From: Roseococcus sp. SDR
GTDB lineage: Bacteria > Pseudomonadota > Alphaproteobacteria > Acetobacterales > Acetobacteraceae
Length of the DNA: 64,000 bases
NCBI RefSeq assembly: GCF_019083995.1
Contig: NZ_JAHRCU010000007.1
Location: 124,001-188,000 of the forward strand
Direction of reading: 5' to 3'
Positions 26,334-29,326 of the stretch are shown here, piece by piece. Position 1 is the first letter of the stretch. The number at the start of each line of letters is the position of its first letter. The notes beneath the pieces are model-generated. The model was not told the DNA's origin. It did no database searches and worked only from the letters and a program-made list of their open reading frames with translations. Made by a program: the position numbers and the translations under genes.

Positions 26334-27953
26334 ATGGCCGCTTCCGATTACGATGCCCTTCCCCGCGTCGCCGCCAACCACCAGCCCCTGACGCCGCTGC
26401 TCTTCCTGGAACGGACGGCCGAGGTGTTTCCCGGCCATGTCGCCGTGGTCCATGGCGCGCTGCGCCGCTCCTATGCCGAGCTGCGCATGCGCTGCGTGAA
26501 GCTCGCGCATGCGCTGCACAATCGCGGGCTCGGGCGTGGCGATACGGTGGCGGCGCTGCTGCCGAACACGCCCGCCATGCTGGAATGCCATTACGGCGTG
26601 CCCATGGCCGGCTGCGTGCTGAACACGATCAACACGCGCCTCGATGCCGCGACCATCGCCTATATCCTCGATCATGGCGAGGCGAAGATCCTCATCGTCG
26701 ACCGGGAGTTCGTGCCTGTGCTGCGCGCCGCGCTGGTGCAGTGCACGAGCAAGCCCACCATCATCGAGGTGAATGACAGCGAGGCGCCCTCGGACGACAC
26801 GCTGGGCGGCTTGGATTACGAGGCGCTGCTCAGCGAGGGCAGCGAGGAATTCGCCTGGCCTTTGCCGCGCGACGAATGGGACGCCATCGCGCTGAACTAC
26901 ACTTCCGGCACGACAGGCAAGCCGAAGGGCGTGGTGTACCACCATCGCGGCGCGCAGCTGCTCGCCATCGGCAATGTGCTCTCGGCGGGAATGGGGCGGC
27001 ATCCGGTCTATCTCTGGACGCTGCCCATGTTCCACTGCAATGGCTGGTGCTTCCCCTGGACCATCACGGCGATGGCGGGCACGCATGTCTGCCTGCGCGC
27101 GGTGCGGGGGCCGGCCATGTGGTCGCTGATCGCGGAGCACGGCGTGACGCATATGTGCGGCGCGCCCATCGTGATGGGCACGCTGCTGGCCACACCCGAG
27201 GCCGAGAAGCGCGCCCTGCCCGGCTCGGTCACCTTCGTCGTCGCCGGCGCGCCGCCGCCCGAAGCCGTGCTGGCCGCCATGCGCGCGGCGGGCTTCGCCG
27301 TGCTGCATGTCTATGGCCTGACCGAGGTCTATGGCCCCGCCGTCACCAATGAATGGCACGCCGACTGGAACAACGCCCCGCCCGCCGAGCAGGCGAAACT
27401 CATGGCGCGGCAGGGGGTGCGCTACGTGCCGCTGGAAGGCCTGGACGTGATGGACCCCGAGACCATGACGCCCATCCCGGCGGATGGCGTCGCGATGGGC
27501 GAGGTGATGTTCCGCGGCAATGTCGTCATGAAGGGCTATCTGAAGGACAAGCCCGCGACCGACGCCGCCTTCGCCGGCGGCTGGTTCCATTCGGGCGACC
27601 TCGCGGTGAAATATCCCGATGGCTACATCCAGCTGCGCGACCGCTCGAAGGACATCATCATCTCGGGCGGCGAGAACATCTCCTCCATCGAGGTGGAAGA
27701 CGCTTTGTACAAGCATCCGGCGGTGGCGCTGGCCGCCGTGGTGGCGCAGCCGGACGAGAAATGGGGCGAGGTACCCTGCGCCTTCGTCGAGCTGCGGGCG
27801 GGGATGAGCGCGACCGAGGCCGAGATCATCGCGCATTGCCGCAGCATTCTGGCCGGATTCAAGGCGCCCAAGCGCATCCTCTTCCAGGAGCTGCCCAAGA
27901 CCAGCACGGGCAAGATCCAGAAGCATGTGCTGCGCAGCGGGATCAGGGGCTGA
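26334..27953 (+). CDS. AMP-forming acyl-CoA synthetase (medium/long-chain or DmdB-like)
   Basis: A 539-residue adenylate-forming ligase. The P-loop TSGTTGKPKG is near residue 190, followed by LPMFHCNGWCFPW, VYGLTEVYGP, the hinge GDLAVKYPDGYIQLRDR and C-terminal lysine region LPKTSTGKIQK. The MFHCNGW block is typical of the branch containing 3-methylmercaptopropionyl-CoA ligase and related fatty acyl-CoA synthetases. The substrate is not certain. It starts 4 bases after the ECHDC3-like gene and closes the operon with prpE. Confidence 0.9.
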   Translation: MAASDYDALPRVAANHQPLTPLLFLERTAEVFPGHVAVVHGALRRSYAELRMRCVKLAHALHNRGLGRGDTVAALLPNTPAMLECHYGVPMAGCVLNTINTRLDAATIAYILDHGEAKILIVDREFVPVLRAALVQCTSKPTIIEVNDSEAPSDDTLGGLDYEALLSEGSEEFAWPLPRDEWDAIALNYTSGTTGKPKGVVYHHRGAQLLAIGNVLSAGMGRHPVYLWTLPMFHCNGWCFPWTITAMAGTHVCLRAVRGPAMWSLIAEHGVTHMCGAPIVMGTLLATPEAEKRALPGSVTFVVAGAPPPEAVLAAMRAAGFAVLHVYGLTEVYGPAVTNEWHADWNNAPPAEQAKLMARQGVRYVPLEGLDVMDPETMTPIPADGVAMGEVMFRGNVVMKGYLKDKPATDAAFAGGWFHSGDLAVKYPDGYIQLRDRSKDIIISGGENISSIEVEDALYKHPAVALAAVVAQPDEKWGEVPCAFVELRAGMSATEAEIIAHCRSILAGFKAPKRILFQELPKTSTGKIQKHVLRSGIRG

Positions 27954-28009
27954 CGCGTTTTTCCTTGCGCGGCGCGACGCGGATCGCCACCTTCATGGGG
28001 TCAACAACC

Positions 28010-28026
28010 GAAAGGAGGTGATCCAG
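28010..28026 (+). promoter_or_regulatory. 17-base perfect complement of the 16S rRNA 3' tail (extended Shine-Dalgarno)
   Basis: The 17 bases at 28010-28026 include AAAGGAGGTGATCC, the full complement of the 16S rRNA 3' end, and continue to match through CAG. GGAGG (28014-28018) lies 7 bases before a GTG. Ordinary Shine-Dalgarno sites here match 4-7 bases, so this is exceptional. It may be an ultra-strong ribosome site for the 23-codon ORF at 28026. Confidence 0.8.
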
Positions 28027-28097
28027 TGTCTCATTGCAGCATGGCCGACGCCGTTTCCGTGGCCTGGATGACCGCCCCTGTTGGGGTGCCTGGCTGA
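28026..28097 (+). CDS. 23-residue ORF with an extreme ribosome binding site (function unknown)
   Basis: GTG at 28026 to TGA at 28097 encodes a 23-residue peptide beginning MSHCSMADAVSV and ending TAPVGVPG. It has no signal peptide or clear membrane segment. Support for translation is the 17-base match to the 16S 3' tail, correctly spaced from the GTG. A perfect terminator 34 bases after the stop suggests a defined 3' end. It could instead be a regulatory RNA whose purpose is ribosome capture, or the non-coding tail of the acyl-CoA synthetase operon. I do not recognise the peptide. Confidence 0.5.
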   Translation: MSHCSMADAVSVAWMTAPVGVPG

Positions 28098-28131
28098 CCG
28101 GCGGCGACGCCACACGCAATGCCTTGAATCG

Positions 28132-28164
28132 GGGCCCGGCGGAGCGATCCGCCGGGCCCTTTTT
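28132..28164 (+). terminator. Strong Rho-independent terminator
   Basis: A perfect 12-bp stem (28132-28143 with 28148-28159) closes a GCGA tetraloop and is followed directly by TTTTT (28160-28164). It terminates plus-strand transcription from the acyl-CoA synthetase operon and the mini-ORF. The T-run touches the stop codon of the convergent membrane-protein gene. Confidence 0.92.
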
Positions 28165-28919
28165 CATGCGGCGCGCGCCAGAAGCAGCGCACCCCACGTC
28201 ATCCCTGCCCAGCCGGCGGCCGCGCCCCAGGCCACCATCGCCCGCGGCCAGAGCCAGACGGCGAGCGGGATGGCCTGCATGGCGTGGATGGCGAGAAAAT
28301 GCGCCACGCGCAGATCCCCCGCCGTGAAGTTCCAGTAGAAGGGCGGCCAGCCTGCGGCATTGCTGCCGCCCGCCACCCAGGCCGAGCCCTGCCCGCCGAT
28401 GGCAAAGCCCGTGACGCCACCCAGCACGCCCGTCAGGAGGAGGCCCAGCCCGGCCGCGAGGCGCGAGGGGCGCGGCACGGCGGGATTGCCGCGCCAGAGG
28501 ATCATCAGCCCCAGCAGGGCCGCCCCTGCCACCAGCAGCGTGGCGCCCAGGCCCATCAGGGCATAGACCACCGCACCCATCCCATCGCGCGCGAAATGGG
28601 ACGGCGCGCCCCAGGCCGCGCGCCAGGTGATCCAGCCCTGCTCGAACAGCGCCATGGCCAGCATCATCAGGACCACCGCGTGCGCGAGGCGCCCCGCCTG
28701 CTGCGCAGGCGAAAGCGCCGGCCAGAACCAGGCCAGCGTCCAGAACCAGGCAACGAAGGAGGCGGCGAATTTCGCCGGCTTCACCCAGACCGAGACGCCG
28801 TCGAACAGCCTTGGGTCCAGTGCTGCCAGCACGAGGCAGGCGAGCAGCCATGCGAGGGCCACCCAGCCGGCCCGCGCGAAATCCGGCTGCCGGCGATGCA
28901 GTTCCGCCAGCATGCTCAT
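28164..28919 (-). CDS. Polytopic membrane protein of unknown function
   Basis: A 251-residue protein with about seven hydrophobic helices and no recognised catalytic motif. Distinctive segments are VSVWVKPAKFAASF near residue 44, ALFEQGWITWRAAWG, and a late HFLAIHAMQ carrying two histidines within a membrane region that could bind a cofactor. The ATG at 28919 overlaps the stop of the upstream ABA4-like gene, so the two are one translationally coupled pair. It probably falls under the TetR regulator divergent from the pair. I cannot assign a function. Confidence 0.75.
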   Translation of the reverse strand: MSMLAELHRRQPDFARAGWVALAWLLACLVLAALDPRLFDGVSVWVKPAKFAASFVAWFWTLAWFWPALSPAQQAGRLAHAVVLMMLAMALFEQGWITWRAAWGAPSHFARDGMGAVVYALMGLGATLLVAGAALLGLMILWRGNPAVPRPSRLAAGLGLLLTGVLGGVTGFAIGGQGSAWVAGGSNAAGWPPFYWNFTAGDLRVAHFLAIHAMQAIPLAVWLWPRAMVAWGAAAGWAGMTWGALLLARAA

Positions 28920-29326
28920 CGCACCACGCGTCGCAGGCCGAGGAAGATGAGCAGGCCCAGCGGCCCGAGCAGGAAGGTGGGCGGCAGGGCCAGCCAGAGG
29001 ACCCAGCGCGGCAGCCCCTCCGCCGTCGCGCGCCGGGCCATCCAGGCGCCGAGGAAGAGATCGAAGGCCAGGTAATGCAGCCAGCCGGCCAGCAGCACCC
29101 AGGGCGAGGCGAAAAGCGCGGCCACGCCGGCCAGGCTGGAGAAGCCGCCCTCCGCCGACGGCATGGCGAAGGTCAGCACCACGCCATAGGCCAGCGCGAA
29201 GGTGACCGGCAGCGCCAGGCCACACAGCGCCCAGTTCACACCGCGCCGATGCGGGAAGAGCAGCAGCGCCACCCAGCCGGCCAGCGCCAGCGTATTGGCA
29301 AGGGTGAAGAGGGTCTCGGGCGTCAT
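28916..29326 (-). CDS. ABA4-like (DUF4281) membrane protein
   Basis: A 136-residue protein with four hydrophobic helices and the pattern of the ABA4-like/DUF4281 family: LFTLANTLALAGWVALL at the start, then SPWVLLAGWLHYLAFDLFLGAWMARRA and PLGLLIFLGLRR at the end. The plant relative is involved in neoxanthin formation, but bacterial members have no established role. The ATG at 29326 is preferred over an upstream TTG at 29341, which would start inside the inverted-repeat operator. It is coupled to the following membrane protein. Confidence 0.85.
   Translation of the reverse strand: MTPETLFTLANTLALAGWVALLLFPHRRGVNWALCGLALPVTFALAYGVVLTFAMPSAEGGFSSLAGVAALFASPWVLLAGWLHYLAFDLFLGAWMARRATAEGLPRWVLWLALPPTFLLGPLGLLIFLGLRRVVR

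Follow-up and report, generated by a model that had tools for sequence, protein, structure and literature searches.

What kind of gene combines a 17-base complement of the 16S rRNA 3' end, a reading frame of only 23 codons and a terminator of its own within some 160 nt? The question is raised by one locus in the window, the stretch of 64,000 nucleotides of Roseococcus sp. SDR analyzed here (G000:C7:124001-188000 of a 5.0 Mb genome). A first-pass annotation had marked the locus as a mini-gene and had offered three readings of it, namely a small protein, a leader peptide, and an RNA that captures or titrates 30S subunits. The evidence described below favors the last of these in a broader form: the locus is probably a free-standing small RNA of the CC2171 type, engaged by ribosomes, with a throwaway open reading frame (ORF) and a long-range helix that competes with initiation.

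Architecture of the locus

The unit lies between a gene of the AMP-binding (acyl-CoA synthetase) type, which ends at 27953, and a minus-strand ORF (28167-29315) that faces it; the part of this ORF searched against Pfam matched nothing at 0.001. Its features are collected in Table 1. Comparison with the genome's own 16S rRNA confirmed the extended Shine-Dalgarno (SD) sequence that the annotation had described: GAAAGGAGGTGATCCAG, from 28010, is the longest exact complement (17 nt) to the 16S 3' region. Its predicted duplex with the 16S tail (-31.9 kcal/mol) ranks first of 63,980 sampled 20-nt positions in a scan of every second position on both strands of the window, with the runner-up (-24.9 kcal/mol) located within a gene. 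Across the whole genome, AAAGGAGGTGATCC with at most one mismatch occurs at three sites, which are the element, the 16S gene in antisense and one other site with one mismatch (reversed control, 0); the full AAAGGAGGTGATCC, the 16S gene aside, is found in the element alone. The GTG-initiated ORF and the terminator likewise proved to be as annotated. The terminator stem (28132-28143/28148-28159) has 12 perfect pairs, or 13 in the terminator scan by addition of a G-T, and is followed by T5 at 28160-28164.

Table 1. Features of the element, in positions of the window.
Feature	Position	Strand	Basis
Possible -35 element CTTGCG of the RNA's own promoter (weak)	27964..27969	+	By eye
Small RNA of about 160 nt, putative extent	28002..28164	+	RF01867 alignment, T-run end at 28164, C/A-rich leader before the SD
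17-nt complement of the 16S rRNA 3' end (extended SD)	28010..28026	+	Comparison with own-genome 16S
23-codon ORF, GTG to TGA; the family keeps the frame, not the peptide	28026..28097	+	
P1 long-range helix, 5' arm CATTGC, codons 3-4	28032..28037	+	
P1 long-range helix, 3' arm GCAATG, just 5' of the terminator	28116..28121	+	
Intrinsic terminator: 12-bp stem, GCGA loop, T5	28132..28164	+	Terminator pairs covary in the 80-row alignment

The six closest elements (L002-L007) all start with GTG, and ATG or GTG is used elsewhere. All six also carry CTTGCG at equal spacing, 32 nt 5' of CAACAA, as judged by eye; a consensus scan of the window element for a sigma-70 promoter found no site. The overlapping 8-codon frame at 27995 that the first-pass annotation had pointed out does exist in the window. 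It looks like a product of chance, however, as relatives such as L003 and L004 lack its ATG and the transcript probably begins further downstream.

Distribution in Alphaproteobacteria

A lack of conservation among relatives had been named as the mark of a chance or decayed sequence. Instead, SD, frame and terminator are kept in relatives, and the mini-gene is real. In a nucleotide search of 41 genomes, its own included, five others of the genus proved to contain the whole or much of the unit (81-88% identity), and the SD stretch was matched in 15 of 20 same-genus genomes, the other five having no match there. Of 385 alphaproteobacterial genomes, 47 contain the exact 19-base pattern AAGGAGGTGATCCRRTGTC (reversed control, 0), which also occurs in at least 117 stretches of the genome collection. 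Among the 80 matches listed with titles, 76 carry alphaproteobacterial names, three are unspecified Proteobacteria and one is an actinobacterium, where an ordinary-looking gene of 200 codons follows the pattern. The looser pattern AAGGAGGTGATCCNNTG (a 13-base core, then NNTG) matched 82 of 397 genomes in a sample of the phylum (reversed control, 0); counted from the listing, these are 80 of 161 Alphaproteobacteria vs. 2 of 236 other members.

The 17 bases are the 16S 3' end read antisense, as would be expected of a decayed 16S fragment. Such a relic, or a chance match, is ruled out by conservation across the class together with a terminator, a frame and a covarying helix, and it retains practically no probability. 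A mobile element was also considered and rejected, with no phage match. Seven plasmid records were matched, six at the SD part only and one at the terminator only, with no feature annotated there; the replicons (0.3-2.8 Mb) belong to Azospirillum, Methylobacterium, Skermanella and Sphingomonas.

Relationship to the CC2171 RNA family

Neither the kinship to a known RNA family nor the long-range helix was part of the first-pass annotation. Rfam gives no match in the window at the gathering threshold. With the threshold lowered, RF01867 (CC2171) aligns with 28002-28159 over model positions 1-159 of 159 (63.2 bits, E 6.7e-13 in a 351-base search). This covariance match spans the full model but falls short of the curated cut-off of 75 bits; the unit is therefore a divergent homologue of CC2171 and not a filed member. 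The likeness runs end to end, through leader, SD, a long-range helix in the family consensus and terminator. The differences are that the window copy scores under the cut-off and that the family is catalogued as 'Gene; sRNA'.

Other elements behave similarly. RF01867 matches the unit in 3 of 14 relatives tested, and L195, which shares its bacterial family with the window, scores 76.3 bits, above the cut-off. Of eight loci from different subfamilies (sphingomonads, Rhodobacterales type, Mesorhizobium, Bradyrhizobium and others), seven align with the model end to end, all under the cut-off (33.8-65.5 bits), and L044 gave no end-to-end alignment at E 0.01. Searching the class found RF01867 at E 0.001 or better in 97 of 389 genomes, 15 of them over the cut-off, and in one of 14 control genomes, that of Caulobacter vibrioides. 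Several genomes (G036, G295, G302, G442, G448 and others) have two or three matches at this level, which may be paralogues. The best 30 RF01867 loci, the window among them, were picked without the SD pattern, though the model itself contains the SD; in all 30, the 16S complement is unbroken over 11 nt or more (13 nt or more in 22) and the ORF has 14-31 codons.

CC2171 is said to have been first reported by Landt et al. in 2008. A list of predicted RNAs in Mesorhizobium huakuii includes it (PMC5596092), and the Rfam 15 paper credits the family with one additional covarying pair (PMC11701678). No description of an ORF or of a 16S complement in CC2171/RF01867 was found in searches of the open-access literature.

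Fixed sequence elements

Plain MAFFT alignment of 80 elements, drawn from the set used for the helix analysis below, shows which parts of the RNA are fixed. All rows share AAGGAGGTG, a TC two bases further along, and TGTC at the start codon. Hardly any variation is seen in the GA preceding the SD, in two bases of the SD itself, in a single G of the long-range helix's 3' arm, or at some terminator positions. This invariance is partly due to how elements were selected, since SD, RTG and TC stood in the pattern of the class and collection scans and SD plus start in the collection of 171 elements described below. Four elements found by nucleotide search or RF01867 (L023, L185, L190 and L210) have changes in the last SD bases and keep AAGGAGGTG. 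The leader 5' of the SD is C/A-rich; for example, A and C have frequencies of 0.83 and 0.17 at -23.

These columns bear on whether the RNA could be an ordinary base-pairing sRNA that acts on mRNAs and contains an ORF by accident. The Rfam category and the structured, terminator-bearing form of the RNA are what such a regulator would show. However, the 16S complement is the sole fixed unpaired stretch in the 80 rows, which therefore show no conserved seed for mRNAs, and the ORF, as shown in the next section, is not fortuitous. An mRNA-directed role is accordingly improbable, at perhaps one chance in ten in our estimation.

Conservation of the frame and freedom of the peptide

To follow the ORF across the class, 171 elements were collected by at most one mismatch to AAGGAGGTGATC plus a start; at least three of these are foreign, being an actinobacterial gene (L073) and chance second matches in L111 and L177. 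In frame 0, 163 of the 171 (95%) reach their first stop at codon 14-31, vs. 37 in frame 1 and 48 in frame 2 (22-28%). Among representatives of less than 65% identity, the same holds for 70 of 76 in frame 0 vs. 16 and 11 in the other frames. The reading frame is thus conserved.

Codon tests were made on 163 of the 171 elements (ORF of 12-31 codons, deduplicated), grouped by equal ORF length and at least 62% identity with single linkage, which gave 11 groups of three or more members. In the three large groups, the stop keeps its place and changes its identity: TAA 13, TGA 13 and TAG 1 in the sphingomonad type (n=27), TGA 5, TAA 4 and TAG 11 in the Rhodobacterales type (n=20), and TGA 12, TAA 2 and TAG 1 in the CC2171 type (n=15). 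Other triplet columns with a stop in some rows have it in all rows just once, in a 3-member group.

The encoded amino acids, in contrast, show no constraint in these groups. Frame 0 has pN/pS values of 1.33, 0.87 and 1.02 (n=27, 20 and 15; bootstrap ranges 0.91-2.21, 0.52-1.36 and 0.71-1.32), and it is not consistently lower than frames 1 and 2 (0.80/0.61, 0.74/0.87 and 1.15/0.79, respectively). The range of the Rhodobacterales type leaves room for mild peptide constraint. Eight smaller groups span 0.69-3.59. As a positive control, 18 codons of ArfB from 15 of the 20 Rhodobacterales-type loci gave a pN/pS of 0.20 (bootstrap 0.08-0.33), vs. 0.88 for the element ORF in the same loci, from which it follows that the method has power. 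A kept frame with pN/pS near 1 implies that selection acts on the start, the open frame and the stop, and on little or nothing of the amino acid sequence.

These values weigh most on the proposal of a functional small protein, in which the element would be a small mRNA using its perfect SD for strong expression of a microprotein. Frame, start and stop are conserved as they would be in such a gene, residues recur (such as Trp in one subfamily), and one 3-member group, that at 0.69, has a lower pN/pS. Against this stand the values near 1 in the three large groups, obtained with a working positive control; the fixed N-terminal residues, which fall within an arm of the long-range helix; and the peptides of different subfamilies, which by eye are otherwise little alike. 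The purifying selection on a functional peptide that characterizes dual-function sRNAs is not seen in the three large groups, and a microprotein is unlikely, if somewhat less so than an mRNA-directed sRNA. As a separate observation, in L144 (Azospirillum) and L039 an identical SD and an MSHGA start lead into ORFs of 59 and 56 codons. By eye these resemble small secreted proteins and could be a variant in which the ORF has turned into a real gene.

A long-range helix at the start of the frame

In a helix here called P1, codons 2-6 pair with the stretch directly 5' of the terminator. Examples of paired arms are UCUCAUUGUC with GACAAUGGA, CAUGGUUCAGC with GCUGACCAUG, and AGUGAG with CUCAC. Of the 163 elements, 140 have a detected terminator and 135 were usable; these were thinned to 108 (<80% identity) and 60 (<65%). 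When arms were swapped between elements, the pairing energy changed from -18.6 kcal/mol for own arms to -13.6 kcal/mol for swapped ones (z -15.3, 0 of 5000 permutations, n=108), and the effect persisted in the more strictly thinned set (z -12.0, 0 of 5000, n=60). Against this, no more than 37 of the 108 elements pair better with their own arm than with 95% of foreign arms.

P1 also covaries in the 80-row alignment. Its nine named pairs have a covariation score of 0.276 vs. 0.137 in shuffles (0 of 500 reach it), which drops to at most 0.084 when the pairing is slid by 1-3 columns. Cells changed on both sides number 74 vs. 28.7 in shuffles (0 of 500). The six pairs with any double change, in contrast, do not exceed the shuffled level (5.5), and 243 of 500 shuffles attain this count. 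Of 79 rows, 29 break the outer pair 30-240 and 26 break the outer pair 32-239. RNAalifold recovered the terminator and a small SD hairpin from the same alignment and did not recover P1; because it failed on so diverse an alignment, the case for P1 is made by the arm-swap and pair-count tests. Folding gave no sign of special SD exposure (mean unpaired 0.41 vs. 0.36 with the body shuffled). A further observation concerns Rhodobacterales-type elements such as L065, in which a CACCTCCT-like stretch before the terminator mimics the 16S anti-SD; it could pair with the element's own SD in an alternative fold.

The first paired base of P1 is position 1 of codon 2 in 77 of the 108 elements. Because P1 mostly begins there, formation of the helix and initiation by a ribosome should be mutually exclusive. 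The same position invites a stricter reading, in which P1 blocks accommodation and the RNA is a pure trap that holds the 30S subunit untranslated. Initiation does not require a 16S-tail complement as long as 11-17 nt, which also fits a trap. The strong selection on stop codon and frame would then be without reason, however, and we consider a pure trap about as unlikely as the microprotein, or very slightly more so. Under the preferred reading, that of an RNA engaged by ribosomes and translated, the stop has a place: it precedes the terminator stem by at least 23 nt (median 52) in the 108 elements.

Neighboring genes

Across 118 loci, neighbors are common within subfamilies and different between them. 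The 20 Rhodobacterales-type loci include one with just 226 nt of sequence. In 15 of the 20, an RF-1-domain, ArfB-like gene follows on the same strand with its ArfB motif no more than 1200 nt away, and in 13 the motif is 229-366 nt from the start codon. A Vut_1 (YhhQ-type) transporter gene is upstream in 12 of the 20; loci with ArfB-like or Vut_1 neighbors include L071, L076, L082, L104, L107 and L146. Elsewhere, the sphingomonad type has what we take to be a TlyA-like gene near 10 loci and an IlvE-like gene near eight. A gene that is presumably of the acetyl-CoA synthetase type precedes the element in 11 clustered loci, most of which are of the Mesorhizobium type, and the cluster also takes in a gene of the window that lies 4 kb upstream.

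Could the element be the leader or attenuator of a downstream gene, as the proposed leader peptide would require? The ArfB-like gene in 15 of 20 Rhodobacterales-type loci has the position that a regulated gene would have. Outside that group, however, the ArfB motif occurs within 1200 nt in L066 only, and downstream genes vary between subfamilies, which points to an independent gene and not to a leader. In the window no regulated same-strand gene follows, since the neighbor beyond the terminator is encoded on the opposite strand, and the leader peptide falls away there. A leader function is very unlikely overall. The tie to the ribosome-rescue gene ArfB is suggestive and confined to the Rhodobacterales-type group.

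Proposed mechanism

The preferred reading can be put as follows. The locus would produce an RNA of about 160 nt of the CC2171 (RF01867) type that ends at its own terminator. Its 5' end complements essentially the whole single-stranded 3' tail of 16S rRNA, correctly spaced before the start codon. Ribosomes would thereby be drawn on, would translate 14-31 codons of no particular sequence, and would be released at a conserved stop 5' of the 3' structures, so that none would run into the terminator without a stop. P1, which pairs the codon-2 region with the stretch before the terminator, would form only where a ribosome is not initiating, and ribosome supply would decide which of these mutually exclusive states the RNA takes. 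The output would most likely be ribosome titration or occupancy-dependent stability of the RNA. A bolder version, for which we see roughly one chance in three, makes CC2171-type RNAs a class-wide device that targets the ribosome itself, a free-standing decoy mRNA with the whole 16S tail paired; its sole purpose would be ribosome occupancy, that is, sensing or titrating free 30S subunits, with the ORF serving release and the helix setting the threshold.

Comparison with known systems

Several alphaproteobacterial RNAs resemble the element in part. Pos19 of Rhodobacter sphaeroides (PMC5036791) is likewise a small RNA with a short ORF, translated there and presumably so here, and a Rho-independent terminator. 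Pos19 is, however, reported to be 219 nt long with an ORF of 150 nt, and SD mutations do not abolish its translation; the window-type element, in contrast, has a constant SD and an unconstrained peptide. The alphaR8/SisA sRNAs, which carry an anti-SD motif, and their sponge CrfA (PMC12559287) are also alphaproteobacterial and built around SD/anti-SD sequences. SisA is reported to carry UUUCCUCCCU and to act on mRNAs, whereas the window-type RNA has the SD strand instead; its match to the 16S tail extends over the full length, that of SisA just over the core. The identity of CrfA with the element was considered and rejected on comparison with the accessible part of its published description. 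Extended SD initiation in Staphylococcus aureus (PMC13009471) shares pairing beyond the core; it is reported there to be a general feature of initiation, whereas here such pairing marks one or few RNA genes per genome. New here are a selected frame with an unconstrained peptide, a covarying long-range helix, and a fixed sequence that consists of the 16S complement plus start.

The setting gives these features their interest. In Caulobacter, according to Schrader et al. (2014; PMC4117421), an SD is present in only 24.6% of CDSs, and the ncRNA regions seen are not translated, yet two previously predicted ncRNAs are. If the preferred reading is true, a widespread family listed as sRNA would be a translated RNA in which selection keeps translation and not its product. 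It would also be a rare example of an RNA with the ribosome as its one fixed sequence partner, and this in a group in which, to go by Caulobacter, SD sites are used sparingly. Finally, it would make testable whether cells gauge or tune their free ribosomes through a dedicated RNA.
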